A stretch of DNA of 64,000 nt from Cladochytrium replicatum. Taxonomy: Eukaryota > Chytridiomycota > Chytridiomycetes > Cladochytriales > Cladochytriaceae. How positions within the stretch are numbered: the stretch's first letter is position 1; each line of letters begins with the position of its first letter. Positions 9,998 to 34,191 of this stretch are shown here, in pieces. The stretch covers positions 124,001-188,000 of the forward strand of contig JAHLKD010000020.1 of the NCBI GenBank assembly GCA_025526935.1, given 5' to 3'. The notes beneath the pieces are model-generated. The model ran no database searches and was not told the DNA's origin. It saw nothing but the letters and a program-made list of their open reading frames with translations. The position numbers and the translations under genes were made by a program.

Positions 9998-10452
9998 CGA
10001 TTGTACCATTAAACGTTCTCTTCCGACACCATTCTTGAAACAAATCTTCTGATCGAACCATTGTCAGCACCACTTTCTTTCCTCATAACTTTCTTATTTT
10101 TGTTTTCTGTGTGCTTTTTTAACCCGATTACAGTTTGCCAGCAGGTTCAATGATGGGATGAAGTATGTACGTCAGAGCTCCTCCCATCTACTTCTCTGGG
10201 TTATGCTGCAAGCTTCCCTTATGTTCATTCTGGGTTTATGATTCATGTTGTTCTGCTCCGAAGCCTTTGTTTCTAGAATTTCGTCTCTTTTTGGGAGAGG
10301 TAGTGTGGGAAGAGGGTTGAACAAATGTGTTTGTTTTGACGCTACTTTTTCTTTGTCCCAAACAACAACGTTCAGCTAATTAAAGAAACGTTCGAATAGG
10401 AAAACCGTTGAAAAGGAGAAGTTTTTAACACGACTGTCCTTTTGTGGACAAG
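9998..10452. other. Convergent intergenic region GDI1/metacaspase
   Basis: About 450 nt between two genes transcribed towards each other, T-rich in its second half. It should hold both 3' UTRs. I see no repeat or other gene. Confidence 0.5.
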
Positions 10453-13400
10453 TTATGGCGAGAATTTCTGAGTAAGCCAATAAGCACGAGCGAAAGTCAC
10501 CTATATGTTTTCTCACCATGTCCATGTCGATTGGGGTGCCAGAACTCAACTGCGGCACTTGAGAGTACCCCTTCTTTCTTAGCAGCTCCAGCATGCGTTT
10601 AAGGAGCTCTCTATACGTAGGCAGCTCGTCGCTCTTCATCGCCGCCAGTAGCGAGTGGGTCATCGCTCCTGTCGCTTCGCCTTGGATCGAGGCGTCAGCT
10701 GAAGTTTGTTCATCCTTACATCCGCTTATTTTACGGAGACCGTTGTTAGAGCGATTCTCAGGTATCAAGTGCCCTACCTAAACATGACGACATGGGCCGC
10801 GGATTTCTTTTGTGAGACATCAACCTTGGCACCGTACGTCGACGGTGTTCTGGCCAGTGTTCCATTTTGATCGTATATGTATGGTAAGTCCAGTGCTGTT
10901 CCTAGCAACAAGCGCGATCATCATTACTGCTGTTGGACTTATTCATGAGAACTTCTTACCACTATGACAACAATCGAAAAAGACGGAAAGTTGTACGCCT
11001 GATGGCAAGGATTGCAGAAGCAGGGCATTAAGGTCCTTGGGAAAATTATAGGTTAGACTGGCTTCAGAATTGTAAACATCTTACATCATCAACGATCATG
11101 CCTGCCTTCTTGTAGTCCAAAGGAACCAGTGTGTCATCCAGCCCATCCAACTCATCTCCGTCTGCACAAATTTTGTTATGTTTTGTCGACTGTCTTTAAC
11201 AAATTGACAGACCATTGTCTTTCTGCTGGCTCCCATGTCCCGAAAAGTGGAGGTACAAAGAATCACCGGGTTTCGTGTCTCGCACGAGCCACGTAAACCC
11301 GCTCAACATGTTTTGTTTGGTTGGGAGTTTCTGCGGATCCTTTTGCCCTTCGTCTGTATGGGAGATGAGCAACTGCGAATAACCTTTTGTTCCCTTTTAC
11401 CTGTCAGAACCAGCATACATTCCCGTGTGTCCTTGTACCCAAACCGAGTCGTGAGCAACCTGTAAACGTTTCTTACATCGTTGATGCATCCTAAGCGTGT
11501 TGTGTGTTATATGCATTTAGTTGCGATCATGCAGCTTCTTCATATACCTTTTAGCTCGGCCTTGGTCCCAGGATAATTGATTCCAATCAAAAGCGCTTTC
11601 TTCCTTGGCGGCCGAGAGTCCAAGCCTTTCTGAACTTTTTGAACCACCTTAGCTGGAACTGGAGTCACTTCCTCTTCTTCCTCGCTTTCTTCGTCGGTAA
11701 CCTCCTCCTCCTCCTCTGCTTCTTCTTCCTCATCATCGTGTTCTTGATCTGGCGCCTGCGAAAAGTAATTGCTAGATGACTGATTTGGAGGTCCCGCTTT
11801 GGCAGCTGCCTTCTTTGGTGGGGACGACACGGGCTGCTGAGCTTGCGGCTTCGGTTTCGAGAATGGATCAAACCCAAACGGCGTTGATGATTGTGCCGTT
11901 GGCTGTTGCTGGGGCTTCGATTGTTGAGAAGCTGCCTTTTGTTGCTTTTGTTGCTGCTCGGGCTGCGAAAATGGGTCGAAACCGGGCTGTTGTGGCGGTC
12001 GCTGTGGAGTAACGGGTTGCTGCTGAGGCGGTCGTGGTGGGGATTGGAAGGCTTGTGGTGGCGGCTGTTGAGGATATCGAGGCATTCCGGATTGTTGTAT
12101 CTGTTGTGGTCTCACTTGACTCGGTGGCCAGGGAACGCTGCTCGTTCCTCTGACCGGCGGCGGGGCATACATCTGCTGTGGTGTAAAGTAGGTTGGCGAA
12201 GGAGCATTGGAACCGTATGCTGGTTGCTGGTAAAAGTTGGACTGTACAAGAGGACCGGGAATGTTGACGGGAGGGGGACGCTGGACTTGGTACTGAGGGG
12301 ACATCTGGGGAGGCCATGGTACAGATGTAGGCGAAGGTTGGGGATGGTGAGACGACGAGGTTGGTGGCCAAGGAGCACTCGATCCGGAAGCTTGGGAAAA
12401 GAAGAAAACCCAGAAATATCAGTGTAGCTCATACCGCTTGATCATTTTACATACGATCTGATATGCTGTGGACATTGCTATTCTTCTCTTTTGAATTCGA
12501 AAACTCTGCATTGTGGTCGTTCAGCTCTGGCCATGGGAACTGTGTCGTCGATTTCTCGGGTTTCTTCTTTTTCCCATCATCCTTGATAGATCCAACTTTC
12601 CCAGCCGCCCTCATTTTGTGCGCTGAAGGAGTCGTAGCTTCCTCAACCCCCCACTCGCTCTGATTTCCACTTTCGGCAGCCTTATTCCCTTTGCGAGGCG
12701 GGCTTGATCCAAGCTTTGTCGCGAGCGACTGCAAGACGTTCTTTAAAAGATCTTGGATGCTCTCATCGCGCAAAAGGTTTGCAACGGTACGATTGAGATC
12801 ATCGCCGTTTGTCTCCTCATCGGAAAGACATTCACCTCCTGCACGTGTCGTTCGTTTGCTGGATTCAGGGATTATGCGATGATTGCTGTGACAGTAACCC
12901 CTCCTTCCCCGTCCGTAGTCATGCTGATGATGATGTTGGGATGCTCGACGGCGTTGGCGCGAATCAGCACTAGAAGTTACACTCACAACGTCGGCGGAAC
13001 TTCCGGACGGTGAAGGCGGGCGGGCTTTGTGGCTCGAGTGATGATGAGATGTGGAACTTTGATGGTGGAGATGGCGAGTGTGGGTTTGCGCAGGTGTTGG
13101 TGCGTTGGGCGTCGAGGTTACGAGTGTCTCCGTTGCGTCACGTTGTTGGCAACACGTATGCTTGTGAACGACGTGGTGATGCACATGTCGACGACCTGGG
13201 GATTTTTTCGGCTCCACTGCATCCAACATCAAATCCCTGGTCTTTGGAGCCTCATCATCTCCGATTTGTATTGGAGAGAATGCTGACGAAACAGGTGCCC
13301 CACACGCTGCAACGATCAGATATTCTCCATCTCTTAAGACACTGACACTTTGTTGCCTTGTGACAATTGAGAACCCAGGTGGTCCACTATACAAAACCGA

Positions 13401-13661
13401 GTCAAGGTAGATTCCGTGATCTGACGCAAGATGAGTGCTTTTGATGTGTGACAAGAAATCATCTATCGTGTAAGAAGCTTTCGTGGTTGCTGGAACCTCG
13501 ACCACTATTCGCCGAGCGGGAAAGTTTGAGGCAAGATCAGGGGCGTTTATGGTTGCAGTCGATTTAGATGATGGGAACCCAATGAAAATGACTGTGACAC
13601 GAGCTGGTGCTGTCTGGTGCTGTAGAAAGCCGAGCACCGGTGAACCTGGTTGCCCCTCCAT
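10453..13661 (-). CDS. Metacaspase with coilin-like N-terminal extension (predicted splice fusion)
   Basis: Arg/Lys-specific cysteine peptidase of clan CD. Exons: 13661-12455, 12390-11548, 11490-11401, 11353-11213, 11161-11085, 11035-10960, 10901-10778, 10724-10517, 10467-10453, all in phase. The caspase fold is clear: KKALLIGINYPG, catalytic His in HFSGHGSQ, DGDELDGLDDTLVPLDY, catalytic Cys in DCCHSG, then SGCKDEQTSAD. A Pro/Gln prodomain with three PWPP motifs and an acidic stretch precede it. The first exon (402 codons) would otherwise be a free ORF ending at TAA 12447. A GTATGT donor at 12454 and a CCCAAG acceptor at 12391 join it in frame through a 64-nt intron. That exon has a coilin-like beta-grasp (TIDDFLSHIK, IYLDSVL, VSVLRDGEYLIV) and a His-rich region. 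The peptidase is certain; the fusion is inferred. An alternative is separate proteins, the metacaspase starting at ATG 12304. Confidence 0.85.
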
Positions 13662-13918
13662 ATTAAAATCACGGATCGTCGTCTACCGAGATCAGGTCGT
13701 GTATTTCCAACCAATCAAGAAACAAAAAGAACCGCACATCAACCAAACTGTACATGTGCGAAATACTGACGTAAATGAAGAGATAACTGACATCTTCAAG
13801 TACACATCTAAAGAACGACGTAATCTAATGCGTTAAGTAATGATCACACGGGAGGGCTCAAATGGGTTGGCGATTGCGACATCCATCTCTCACCAATCCT
13901 TTCTCTCTCGCTCTTGAC

Positions 13919-14527
13919 CTATTGTTGCACAAACTGAATGCTCCTTGGATCACCAAACATTGCTGCCGGCGGCGGTGGGGATTGCTCAACTGCGCTTATC
14001 ATGCCAGCTGATTTGTGAACGAGCCTGTGCAGTAGTTCGTTTCTGAAAGACCAGACGCACGCACAGCAATAAAGTTCAAGTGCTATCACACCGACAAGGA
14101 CCAGAATCCAGAGCAGCGACAAATAACCATCCGAGTAAACTAACAAGCCAATCAATAATACAAGTACAAATGCACGAAGGACCCGGAGAAAAACATTCCG
14201 CGTGTACAAATCTCAACGTGAATGATTTCTGAGTGGTGGGCCACGAAAACACCCCTAAGGTGATCAACCACATTAAGTCAACTGAATCAAATAATAAGGA
14301 TAAATAGTCTGCCAGATGTTCCAAGTTGCCCCACAAAATGATACGAAAGCAAGGAGAATCGAATGAAACATGCTGGAGATGAGATATGCCAAATTTTGTG
14401 GTCTGCAGAAGCCAGCTGGTGACGTAGCGCAATCCGCGCAAAAGGATGAAGTAAGGCTCAAACCTACGAGTTCATAAGGATTCTATGGCAGGATGGCTTG
14501 CATTAAGACTAACAAGAAAGCGCTCAT
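13919..14527 (-). CDS. Putative multi-pass membrane protein (exons approximate)
   Basis: I do not recognise this gene. The 3' exon (start near 14210, stop at 13919) encodes two strong hydrophobic segments, RVLRAFVLVLLIGLLVYSDG and LLWILVLVGVIALELYCC, then a soluble tail with SAVEQSPPPPAAM. A further hydrophobic exon lies at about 14285-14480 (NLAYLISSMFHSILLAFVSF), read in a different frame, so an intron must lie between (about 14211-14280). A third hydrophobic segment at 14490-14527 (VMSAFLLVLMQAIL) may belong to the first exon. Overall it suggests three or four membrane spans, MARVEL-like in layout. The start codon and the splice sites are not settled. No family is claimed. Confidence 0.35.
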
Positions 14528-14966
14528 CACCAACGCGATGACATTAGTTAGCTACGGCGAAGTTGAGGGCGATGACCAGTGTGCCAGTTCTCAAGCTCAG
14601 CAAGCAGCAAGCAACTGTGAGTGATGGAGCGTGCGCATCAAGTTGCTTGTCTAAGTTTGGAGTTAAACGATAGACGATCCGACCGAGCAGTGTGTCGGTC
14701 GTGAACATCAAGAACACGGTGATGTGGCACTTGAATTGGATCTACTCTGGTGGGTGCTTTGAGAACTTCATGGTTGAGAGCCCCATTGTGAGCGAGAGGC
14801 AAGATCAACGTGAATGGAACGATTTCTGGTGGCCCTTTGGAAGATTTTCTCTCAGCACGGGTCAGAAATGGTGCGTGACGCGCGTAAAGCCACATCAAGC
14901 AGTGACGTTCACACGTGAATTGAATATTGGGGTCTACAATGTTTTATTCCAACGGTGATGCAAAAC
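14528..14966. other. Region between membrane protein and mitochondrial carrier
   Basis: About 440 nt upstream of the putative membrane protein and downstream of the carrier. It may hold the true 5' exon of the membrane protein (a hydrophobic frame VIALNFAVAN lies near 14550-14580). Open frames on both strands at 14640-14950 have no recognisable motif. Confidence 0.35.
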
Positions 14967-16402
14967 TCATGGTCCTCGTGACCGACAAAATCGTGTAACT
15001 TGCTCGTAAACCAAAAAGTTGAGAGAATGGACTGGGAATGAGCGGATGAGTTGCGGTCCAAGTCCATGATAAAATCCAACCAGGCCGCGTTTCTTCCAAT
15101 GTTTTGCGACAAACTCGAGTGTAGATCGATACTTTGGCGAGTCAGACAAAGCTTCCCGCTGGATCACCGATTTCGCAAGATCGATAGGAAACAAGAAAAG
15201 CCACACAACCGTCCCGCCCAGTCCGCCAGCCAGCATGTGTACCAAAGGTACTTCTGCCGCAGCAAGATCTGCGGCAGTCGGCGGATCGGTCGAGGGCCGT
15301 GAATAAAGTCCCGCATTGTAGTTTATGAGGCTGTGTTTAAGCAGCTCATAGAAGGTGAAATAAAGCCCCGTACCAAAACCATCTCTAGTTAAGTGGGCTG
15401 ATATCAGTTTCTCGCACCAGCGTCGACGAAGCGAAAGTCTCACCGGAGTAGATGTGGCACGTATCCAGAATACAATCCAACCACACCCCGCTTCTTGATT
15501 ATCTTACGGATCATATCTACCGTTGTGCCAGGTTTAAACTCGGCTTTTTGCTGGTCTGATCGACGTACGGGAGGCTTTCTTCCGCGTGTTCCAGCTATTG
15601 CGTGATCATCACCTGCTACGATGCCCGCACTCGCCGGCCCAACAAACACTTCTCCGACAGTAGGAACTGCGGCCTTTGCTGGTAGGACTGCCGGATCTGC
15701 AGCAGGTGGCACACCGCTTCCCGCAGTCCTTAAAGACTTTGCTGAAGCCCGAGCCGCCGCTCCCGCTTCAGCTTGCTGTTGTTGCGCAGTATGTATCAAT
15801 CGCTCGAGTTGACGTTGAATCTTCACAAATTCAAGTGGTGCATTCAGAGTGGCAACGACACATCCTCCAGCAGCACCTGATATGTACGCATTCGCTGCGA
15901 TTCTGCGGTAAGCACATAGAGAGCCCAGCTGCTCGTCTGCCGATATTGGAAGGATAGTTTGATTTAGGAAAGCCTTTGTATTGGTGTACATCGTAAAGCT
16001 GACTGAGCGGAATGCAGAAACTGATAACAGAAGAGGTACTATTAAGGATTTTTTGAGAATTGGAAAATACAATTGTTTGAACATGATTCATACCAACTCC
16101 ACGATAGAACCCCGCAAGTCCTTCAGCGGCGTATGTCTGTGTCAGACAAGCCCACGCAGAACCAAATCGATATGCTTGCATTCTAGTCTTCAGAGAGTCA
16201 AACTTAAGAGGAATGCACAAGTTCAGCGATCAATTGTCCGAATGGCAAAGTGATAGACAGGTACCGGATATCCAGCCAACACCGACAATATGGAGGCAGA
16301 GGTTGCAGCAATCACGATTTCATTGTTATATAGAAAGCGATCCACGCTGGATTGAACATCCCATGAATGGCCTGGCAGTGGATTGTCCTCGGCATCGCGC
16401 AT
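14967..16402 (-). CDS. Mitochondrial carrier family (SLC25) protein
   Basis: Inner-membrane solute exchanger; substrate unknown. Exons 16402-16265, 16202-16094, 16038-15444, 15384-14967; 419 residues, longer than the usual roughly 300. All three repeats carry the carrier signature P-x-[DE]-x-x-[KR]: YPFDSLKTRMQ, APLEFVKIQRQ and FPIDLAKSVIQ. The matrix-loop helices end in EGLAGFYRG, KKRGVVGLYSGYVPHL and KKRGLVGFYHGLGPQLIRS. The extra length is a matrix-side loop of about 90 residues after the second signature, rich in Ala, Gln and basic residues. The first signature is split by an intron exactly between Pro and Phe. The ATG at 16402 lies 47 nt from the ATG of the divergent RNF32-like gene. The amino-acid/carnitine-type subfamily cannot be fixed by eye. 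Confidence 0.9.
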
Positions 16403-16449
16403 CAAGCACGAATCTAAATGATGTGGCTTGAGTTGATAGATCATTTGCC
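16403..16449. promoter_or_regulatory. Compact bidirectional promoter interval
   Basis: Only 47 nt separate the predicted start codons of the carrier (minus) and the RNF32-like gene (plus). The promoter elements or leader exons of one gene must therefore overlap the other, unless an undetected upstream exon exists. Confidence 0.45.
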
Positions 16450-18171
16450 ATGCAACCGAATCACACTGGAAAGAAAATGGACCGGGGTCTTGCACCTCTT
16501 TCATCGCAGGGACCAAGAGGAGATGAAAGATTTTCAAATAAACAGTTCCCCAAATCAACTGGATTCGTCCTCCCACCCATTCAGTCGCGAAAGACAGTGG
16601 GAATTGATCATGGAGCCGCTCTCTGGAATTCAGTCGCGCTGCAAGATCAGTACGAAATATCTCAAACAGAGAGTTGCATTATTAAATTCCTGCAACAAGC
16701 TTAGTACGAAACCTACATTTGGAAGACTTATTAACACCAACCTATGCGGTACTCCCTCAACATGGCCACACAAGGAAGAAGAACCCACGCCCACTTCATT
16801 TACGTGTTGTGGAAAGGGCAAAGCGTACCACAATCTCTCATATTGAGCGTACCCGAAAGTTGAACGCAACAAACCCATACGAAATGTCTGAAACAGAACG
16901 ATTATTGGACCCTCTTCCTAGTTCATTGACTTTGGGTCAGGAAGTAGAATTTAAAAGGTATGAAGACAAGAATAATATTTTCGCTGCAGCACAGAGATTG
17001 GATCTAGTTCCCAAGCCAGCAGAGCGGCTTGATCGAGCTGGATGGGATGAAGTAAAGCAACGTTTCCTTCGAGAGGATGTTGAAAGCCCATGTCCAATAT
17101 GTCAAGAGAAATTTACAGTAGATGACCAGGTAGTTAGAATCATGGTATCGGCGTATGACTACTAATTCACAATCCATTCAGGTTCTTCTTTCGTGCTCTC
17201 ACGCATTCCATCGAAAGTGTATGCGGACATTTCGGAAATTAAATTCAGACTTACTTTATCGCTGGTAGGTCTTGAATCATACGAGAGGTTTGTTAAACAG
17301 CGATGTTGTCCACTCTGTCGCCACCTGAACTATGAGAAGGTAATGGAGATTCCCGGCAAAAAAAAGAGCGTTCAGATCACTTAAATAATTTTTCCGGTAT
17401 AGATGCTTATTCTGGAAGGGAAGCGTCGGTACATCCGTGAATGCGCAACAAAGTATGACGAATGGTAGCTGTTTTGTCACTTTGTATCGATCCAGTCACT
17501 CCAGAATTCAGAAATACTGGCGAGGCTACAGGGTGCGAAAAATTTATGAAGAGTATCGCTCCAACCATATCCCAGATCATGCCATTTTGCGGAAAAAGTA
17601 TTTCTTTCAGAAGGTAAGGCAGAATGAAGTTGGATTATCAGTCAATTAATGACTACGTCAGCTCAGAAAACTAACAGATCAGTTGGTCCTACGGTGTAAT
17701 TCAGAAAAGTCCAGTTTGGACTCCCTCTTTCGCACTGTGGATAAGAATTTGGAAGAAAGCCGACGTGTAATGGAGAGGTTGTATCTCGATGCAAACTGGT
17801 CTGTTTCCCACCATACGCATATTTCTTGAGCACTAATAGTTTATGCCAGCCACGATCTAGCGCTGGAGCTGCATTTCGATGAGAACCAACTCGACTCCAT
17901 AAGCAAATCGGAGAACGATTGGGATGCCATATATCTCTTAGCCGTTTCTCGTGGACACTTGGTCGAAGATTCTTTGTGTCCAATTTGCCTCAACCAGCTC
18001 CAACCAGTCCAACCATCAACAAAGCGAAAGCGGCCCATTTCAATCCTCAGTTGTTCCCACGTATTTCATGACAAGTGTTTGGATTGCTTTGAAAGCTTTG
18101 TTGAATGCGACGTTGGGATTTCTTGTCCTGTCTGTAGGACAAAATACTACCGCAAAACTAACCTACCCTGA
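16450..18171 (+). CDS. RNF32-like protein (two RING fingers and an IQ motif)
   Basis: Eight exons in phase: 16450-16649, 16700-17129, 17182-17218, 17269-17339, 17403-17452, 17505-17613, 17662-17798, 17850-18171; 451 residues. The N-terminus has NSVALQDH then LVRNLHLED, matching the start of mammalian RNF32 as I remember it. LLDPLPSSLTLGQ precedes the first RING (CPICQEKF, VLLSCSHAFHRKC, CCPLCR). An IQ motif follows (ATKIQKYWRGYRVRK), then a linker and a second RING (CPICLNQL, ILSCSHVFHDKC, CPVCRTKYY). This is the full RNF32 architecture. RING domains suggest E3 ubiquitin ligase activity and the IQ motif calmodulin binding. RNF32 is expressed in testis in mammals, and I infer a flagellum or centriole role. 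It lies 77 nt upstream of ARPC5 on the same strand. Confidence 0.9.
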
Positions 18172-18248
18172 ACAATATACTTTAACGAGCCATGATGAGT
18201 TTGACACACCAGACCAATTGGTATCAAGCCACACCACCACCAGGACTG

Positions 18249-18864
18249 ATGGCCTTCCGCAAGACGAATGTGGAGTTTGACGATGAGAACGCTTTCCACG
18301 ACGACGATGGTTCGGGGCTCTCCGTTGCGGATCTCGAAGCCAATGTAGACGCTCGTGGAGTGGATGTTCGGAGCTTGTTGCAAAGGTTGGATTTGGGCGA
18401 GGTGGGATCATCTCAAACGAACTAAACATATCCATGCTGCAGGGGAAATATCGCTGCCGCAGTCGCAAAATCAGTCACAGATCCTCCCGTCGGTCGTACT
18501 CCTTCATCTCTTAAGGTTGGGACAATTCCACGTTCATTGACGAGCCAAACATTGACGAGCGAATTCAGGACCGCAACACCCAAACTGTAATGGAAGCACT
18601 TCAGGCTGCAAAGACCGGTGAAATCTCGGGAATAGTGAAAACGCTCTCAAGCGATCAGCTGGATGTTCTTATGAAGTACATCTATCGGGGAATGGCCTCA
18701 CCAGAGACCTACAACTCCAGCATTTTGCTTACATGGCACGAAAAGGTAAACTTTATTCCCATTGAAATCACTTCAGTCAAAGCGCTCATATCTAGGACCA
18801 GGTTCTCGAGGTTTCTGGACTGGGATCAGTTGTGAGGGTGCTCACGGACAGGAGCACTGTGTAG
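18249..18864 (+). CDS. ARPC5: Arp2/3 complex subunit 5 (p16-Arc)
   Basis: Subunit of the Arp2/3 complex that nucleates branched actin filaments. Exons 18249-18385, 18443-18515, 18569-18745, 18796-18864; 151 residues, the usual size. Hallmarks: MAFRKTNVEFDDENAF at the N-terminus, VDVRSLLQRGNIAAAVAKSV, DRNTQTVMEALQA, DVLMKYIYRGMASPE, LLTWHEK and GLGSVVRVLTDR. An earlier in-frame ATG at 18192 would add 19 residues without family support, and it would leave only 20 nt after the RNF32-like stop. I therefore chose 18249. Intron 18516-18568 has a weaker GTTGGG donor, but splicing is required to keep the frame and the conserved KDR junction. Confidence 0.93.
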
Positions 18865-19049
18865 ATCAGAACTCCTACCCATCAATATACATATTACTCA
18901 TTTTGTTTGCATGTATGTGGTTGTGTATTGTGTTAAGTCCAAAAAGCAATCGTAACATGCACAGATATTTCAAAAACCGCAAACAGAGTTACAAAGGGTC
19001 AGATTTAAAGGCTACAATGCCCAGTCCAGTTAACACAGTAGAAAAGAGA

Positions 19050-34191
<15,142 letters not shown>

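Follow-up and report, generated by a model that had tools for sequence, protein, structure and literature searches.

Comparative support for the fusion of a probable coilin-related N-terminal domain to a type I metacaspase in Cladochytrium replicatum

The window analyzed here, a stretch of 64,000 nucleotides from the chytrid Cladochytrium replicatum (contig JAHLKD010000020.1, hereafter C20, positions 124001-188000, in a 50.5-Mb genome), carries a gene that we read, with a probability of about 0.57, as an Mca1-type metacaspase whose prodomain is extended by a linker and by a domain related to the N-terminal domain (NTD) of coilin, the domain serving to tether the protease. That the exon encoding this domain and the metacaspase form one fused gene is supported by sequence comparison with a second copy of the locus in the same genome.

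Results

Structure of the gene

The spliced gene consists of 9 exons that encode 926 amino acids in a single frame ending at position 10453 of the window, as given by the gene model and its translation. Exon 1 (12455..13661, minus strand) runs from 13661 to 12455, begins with ATG at 13661-13659 and comprises 402 codons plus one base; it encodes the coilin-NTD-like domain followed by a disordered-looking linker of His, Ser and basic character, and it is open in both homeologous copies described below. The 926-residue frame is obtained by removing the 64-nt intron 1 (12391..12454, minus strand; GTATGT...CCCAAG, phase 1), which links exon 1 to the metacaspase prodomain, together with seven more introns. 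Exon 2 (11548..12390, minus strand; 82% nucleotide identity to the second copy) encodes the P/Q-rich and acidic prodomain and the start of the caspase domain. Its frame is open upstream of the first in-frame ATG of the exon (12302..12304, minus strand) and includes two PWPP motifs in that part. The p20-p10 catalytic domain (10453..11602, minus strand) takes up the rest of exon 2 and exons 3-9, up to the stop codon TAA at 10453-10455. Read without splicing, exon 1 continues to a TAA ending at 12447. A preliminary description of this DNA had given the coordinates of exon 1 and intron 1, the splice sites, the phase and the lengths, and all of these landmarks were correct when recomputed; its in-phase joined product of 926 residues was reproduced by the 9-exon gene model, and the open frame upstream of ATG 12304, including both PWPP motifs, was confirmed in the translation.

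The protease portion is, as judged from its sequence, an Mca1-like type I metacaspase with a catalytically equipped C14 domain. It matches the Pfam family Peptidase_C14 (E 1.2e-39; 136.9 bits compared to a cut-off of 21.4), and the nearest solved structure is Metacaspase-1 4f6o (E 2.8e-67), which we take to be the yeast protein. The histidine motif HFSGHGSQ is encoded in exon 4 and the cysteine motif FFDCCHSG in exon 6, and both motifs as well as DGDELDG align with 4f6o; presumably, they provide the His-Cys dyad and an acidic Ca site. The layout in the gene model is that of type I, with a P/Q-rich prodomain, p20 before p10 and no long p20-p10 linker. In addition to the catalytic domain, the likeness to yeast metacaspase-1 (Mca1/Yca1, which we assume belongs to MEROPS class C14B) includes the His/Cys dyad, the P/Q-rich prodomain, the DGDE.DG motif and the C-terminal PQLSS.PID motif. 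Unlike Mca1, the fusion has 431 residues before the first Met of the usual prodomain; they include a domain that is probably folded as well as a conserved patch of probable helix.

The genome has further C14 matches on contigs C1 (798440-799416) and C4 (126880-135932), those on C4 forming a cluster. The metacaspases at these places have a different C-terminal signature, FPISL[DE]IPF, and some have an acidic prodomain. Searches of the genome with exon 1 and with the domain from contig C74 (see below) did not find the N-terminal domain at the C1 and C4 loci.

The fusion is shared by a homeologous copy

A DNA search of the genome revealed a second copy of the locus on contig C7, in an alignment that spans the whole gene at about 77% identity. 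The C7 copy has an open frame of 907 amino acids, keeps the same ATG and has all eight introns at the same positions and phases as the C20 gene. In all nine exons, exon 1 and exon 2 on the two sides of the join included, the lengths of the two copies differ by multiples of three. Intron 1 of C7 is 51 nt long (GTATTT...AAGTAG), with the position and phase seen in C20. Within a 10-kb stretch beside the gene, pieces of 7.0 kb (85% identity), 1.5 kb (81%) and 43 bases (88%) also match C7; because these flanking pieces match in the same order, we read C20 and C7 as a homeologous block. The proposal in the preliminary description that one gene encodes the N-terminal domain and the metacaspase is supported by the C7 homeolog, which keeps the splice structure and the frame, and by the comparison of the two copies.

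Compared between the C20 and C7 copies, exon 1 had a Ka/Ks of 0.055 over residues 1-125 and of 0.189 over residues 126-402, and beyond the join Ka/Ks was 0.168 for the metacaspase prodomain and 0.052 for the catalytic domain. In the short part of exon 2 that precedes its first ATG (27 codons compared), Ka/Ks was 0.185, and the differences numbered 3, 2 and 10 at the first, second and third codon positions (10 of 15 at the third position). In a gap-friendly alignment, the identity of intron 1 between the copies was 0.75 (shuffle mean 0.71), while that of introns 2-8 was 0.67-0.77 (shuffle means 0.68-0.72). These values indicate that the sequence on either side of intron 1 evolves as protein and that intron 1 itself has diverged like introns 2-8.

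It is very unlikely that the locus consists of two adjacent genes, namely a single-exon gene that stops at TAA 12447 after 404 residues and a metacaspase gene that starts at ATG 12304 from its own promoter. Both halves do have an ATG and a frame that stays open, translation without splicing stops at 12447, and ordinary fungal metacaspases begin in a P/Q-rich prodomain; however, ATG 12304 reads ATT (Ile) in C7, where the first Met past the junction is residue 468, so that conservation does not extend to a separate gene start at this ATG. The codons upstream of this ATG are also under protein-level constraint, the stops reached after exon 1 lie at unrelated places behind unrelated tails, and the divergence of the intervening intron leaves little room for a conserved promoter between the halves. 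Two observations do count against the fusion. Of the segments measured, the 50 residues that lead up to the junction show the lowest conservation (51% identity, Ka/Ks 0.325), with 10, 11 and 16 differences by codon position and 9 gap columns, and the donor of intron 1 in C7, GTATTT, has a score of 1.7 bits, which is under the 2.3-8.7 range of the 14 other introns. The donor of intron 1 in C20 scores 6.4, and the acceptors of both copies are within range. A CTNAY branch-like motif is found in intron 1 of both copies, and it is not diagnostic because 6 of 16 introns do not have it. The preliminary description had further suggested that the same gene makes a short coilin-like isoform by retention of intron 1. 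Regulated retention, by which a short protein with the domain alone would be made beside the fusion, would be consistent with the weak C7 donor and with the stop found inside the intron in both copies (products of 404 and 407 amino acids), but chance alone is expected to place a stop in an unspliced short intron. In addition, the intron has diverged and the tails of the two products (RM in C20 vs RILTQELNFVCADLF in C7) are completely different. Because the retained-intron tails are unrelated between the copies, a functional short form gains no support, and we consider regulated retention improbable.

The N-terminal domain occurs at four loci

The coilin-NTD-like domain (residues 21-124; 13290..13601, minus strand) is about 105 amino acids long and lies at the start of exon 1. 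It is found at four loci in the genome, being common to C20, C7, C19 and C74. A search of the genome with exon 1 (E <= 1) returned three places, that is, exon 1 itself, C7 and C19 (E 2.7e-10, residues 18-128), while a search with the C74 domain returned C74, C19, C7 and C20 plus a weak match on C22 (E 0.29). The domain is fused to a metacaspase at two of these loci (C20 and C7), and at the other two (C19 and C74), which form a second homeologous pair, it is followed by RD/RE-rich repeats. The domain of C20 has 43% identity to that of C19 and 39% to that of C74, with none of 300 shuffles as high. In contrast to the domain, the linker and helical patch of exon 1 show no similarity above shuffles to the C19 and C74 tails (45 to 230 of 300 as high). 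The C19 locus runs from 399944 and the C74 locus from 155441, and later exons are visible in the alignment. We regard this gene pair as a candidate for a coilin-like or splicing-related protein of the fungus.

The most constrained segment measured between C20 and C7 lies outside the domain, at residues 290-325 (NRTVANLLRDESIQDLLKNVLQSLATKLGSSPPRKG; 12687..12794, minus strand), with 94% amino acid identity and Ka/Ks 0.015. As judged by eye this patch is probably helical, and it is perhaps a helical binding motif. No Pfam family was reported for it in exon 1, and it had no similarity to the C74 tail above shuffles.

Scans with sequence patterns matched 45 stretches in viral contigs and 100 in bacterial and archaeal genomes, none of which was confirmed as a relative of the domain, and a PDB sequence search with the four-row domain profile gave chance-level matches only (4 rows, best E 0.99). 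Peptidase_M61_N (E 0.1 and 0.082) and ComS (E 0.15), each matched by single members, were set aside as chance.

Kinship of the domain with the coilin N-terminal domain

The sequence comparisons suggest that the domain is likely a remote relative of the coilin NTD and not a member of the coilin family itself. The Pfam profile Coilin_N has a gathering score of 32.9 bits, and this level is not reached anywhere in the genome. Over the genome at E <= 10 the profile gave 3 matches, all below cut-off; the best two were C74 (E 0.012, 20.4 bits) and C19 (E 0.024, 19.2 bits), and the third, on C87 (E 0.047, 18.2 bits), lies outside this domain family. The ranking is modest evidence because a non-member scores nearly as high. 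Among Pfam families, Coilin_N ranked first for the N-terminal 175 amino acids of C74 (E 0.00061, 20.1 bits, sub-threshold) and was the best family by hmmscan for the 313-residue C74 protein (E 0.0061), while for the first 192 amino acids of C19 it came second (E 0.027, 14.8 bits) with DUF3682 ahead at 0.011. It was not reported for exon 1, for the 139-residue N-terminus, for any of the four isolated domains or for the 369-residue C19 protein. The 57-residue core of C74 alone gave no Coilin_N match, a 93-residue piece gave only E 0.13, and the C74 tail alone also gave none. Since the isolated domains and the C74 core give no match, the sequence that follows the domain contributes part of the score.

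Profile comparison preferred coilin to three other beta-grasp sets. Using hhalign, the four-row domain profile was compared with two coilin sequences and scored 25.9 (probability 31.7%, single-comparison P 0.0005), and 0 of 60 column shuffles were as high (best shuffle 16.2). DCX scored 12.4 (5 of 60 shuffles as high), CIDE-N 10.3 (16 of 60) and UBL 9.1 (38 of 60), all within the values of their shuffles. A simpler single-profile test was led by Arabidopsis coilin (1 of 500 shuffles as high), and human coilin (31 of 500) did no better in it than the Raf RBD (22 of 500). The preliminary description had called the N-terminus coilin-like; the hhalign comparison favors coilin, as do the sub-threshold matches in C74 and C19, whereas exon 1 itself gives no Coilin_N match and the single-profile result is weak.

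The domain resembles the NTD of human and Arabidopsis coilin in the order of its strand, helix and strand motifs, in a TI-D/E-FL helix and in an end of the form (S)V..LRDG(D/E).LIV. For the plant coilin NTD, a model with a ubiquitin-like fold has been described (PMC3539977). Self-association of the NTD of human coilin is described as requiring R8 and D79, and its binding of Nopp140 as requiring R36 (PMC9556525). Coilin D79 aligns in the hhalign alignment with E113 of the fusion, and C19 and C74 have Asp at this place. Coilin R8, outside the aligned part, corresponds by eye to R21, which is invariant in all four domains. The third residue, R36, aligns with Y64 and is not kept (Tyr, Gln or Pro across the domains). 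As a lead, this pattern would fit a domain in which self-association is kept and the Nopp140 contact is lost. Unlike coilin, the protein is below the Coilin_N cut-off, does not keep R36, has a longer first loop and carries an attached protease in place of a Tudor-like C-terminus. A genome search at E <= 10 gave no Tudor_Coilin (PF23086) match, although an intron-split domain could have escaped it.

The same data can be read as one fused gene whose domain is a ubiquitin-like (beta-grasp) interaction module, either generic or particular to this lineage, with no special kinship to coilin and a likeness that is fold-level or compositional. We consider this reading rather doubtful. It accounts for the lack of any Pfam family above cut-off for the domain, for a Coilin_N signal that comes partly from flanking low-complexity sequence (as the C74 core and the 93-residue piece indicate), for the score of the non-member on C87, for the loss of the Nopp140-contact residue and for the ordinary rank of human coilin in the single-profile test; however, it does not lead one to expect that hhalign ranks coilin over DCX, CIDE-N and UBL, that the two best Coilin_N matches in 50 Mb both belong to this domain family, or that the C74 tail alone has no Coilin_N match. 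A more specific identity, a doublecortin (DCX) domain that would target the protease to microtubules or the flagellum, is highly implausible. By eye there is a resemblance to DCX where the domain ends (LRDGEYLIVAACG), and the genome belongs to a flagellated fungus, but the six genome matches of the DCX profile (E <= 10) include clear DCX genes on C58 and C1 and none of the four loci, and 5 of 60 shuffles were as high as its hhalign score. DCX and the other beta-grasp families are thus disfavored as the identity of the domain by the profile comparisons and by the DCX genome search. That the genome encodes IFT57 and DCX proteins fits a flagellated fungus, in agreement with the zoosporic fungus assumed in the preliminary description.

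Discussion

Our preferred reading is that of a metacaspase tethered through its coilin-related extension. On this reading the fusion predates the duplication that yielded the two homeologs, both of which retained it. We infer that the domain has a coilin-type fold and self-associates, binds the C19 and C74 sister proteins with their RD/RE-rich (spliceosome-like) tails, or does both, and that this would tether the protease in a condensate of nuclear or RNP type. Autoprocessing in the basic linker, triggered by Ca2+ and cutting after basic residues, may then release the catalytic domain.

The type I metacaspase MC1 of Arabidopsis is described as sitting in stress granules, with a prodomain that affects granule dynamics (PMC10473220), and in yeast Mca1 extra N-terminal residues are described as switching the protein towards aggregation (PMC2847904). 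Given these precedents, a coilin-type domain before the prodomain would most simply be a localisation or clustering module. Because metacaspases are described as monomeric, Ca-dependent enzymes (PMC12914765), clustering need not activate the protease. MC1 resembles the fusion as a type I metacaspase in an RNP condensate; unlike the fusion, it is described as being recruited through a 360 loop found only in plants, and the accessible text of the report mentions no coilin-like domain (PMC10473220). A fungal coilin is known in the form of S. pombe Mug174 (PMC11347179), which by its description can be set beside the fusion as a fungal protein with an N-terminal domain, a disordered middle and condensate formation. 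Mug174 differs from the fusion in having a coilin-homologous C-terminal domain, and no protease is mentioned in the accessible text (PMC11347179).

A stronger form of this proposal is tentative at best and, in our view, rather unlikely to hold in full. Here a coilin-type self-assembly domain would have been recruited as a metacaspase prodomain, as the counterpart of CARD or DED; its assembly by way of R21 and E113, joined by the RD-rich sister proteins, would position and cluster the protease in a Cajal-body-like or splicing condensate, and Ca2+ would trigger proteolysis of that body. Initiator caspases carry a self-assembling N-terminal CARD or DED on a caspase-fold protease. Unlike the fusion, they use a helical death fold, an unrelated domain, and are activated by dimerisation.

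The prodomain of metacaspases is generally reported to be disordered or a zinc finger, and to our knowledge accounts of the coilin N-terminal domain are as a rule confined to coilin. The preliminary description knew of no described protein that joins a Cajal-body-type domain to a caspase-fold peptidase, and likewise we found no coilin-metacaspase protein in the titles and abstract openings of the open-licence papers listed. If the reading is true, a condensate scaffold domain on an Mca1-type protease would connect caspase-fold proteolysis with nuclear RNP bodies in a direct and testable way, and the coilin N-terminal domain would join the domains that are shuffled between proteins. The presence of protease-linked and RD-rich forms in one fungus would also help to define the function of the domain itself.

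Homeologous surroundings of the gene

The region at 10200-24900 of the window mostly matches C7 624900-638600 in order, at 77-88% identity. C19 and C74 are a second such pair besides C20 and C7, and because there are two such pairs the genome may be an old duplicate or a hybrid. The neighboring upstream gene (13843-14200, minus strand) aligns well with C7, with a single-base gap, and has TAG in the aligned stretch where C7 reads CAG, suggesting that the window copy of this gene may be decaying.
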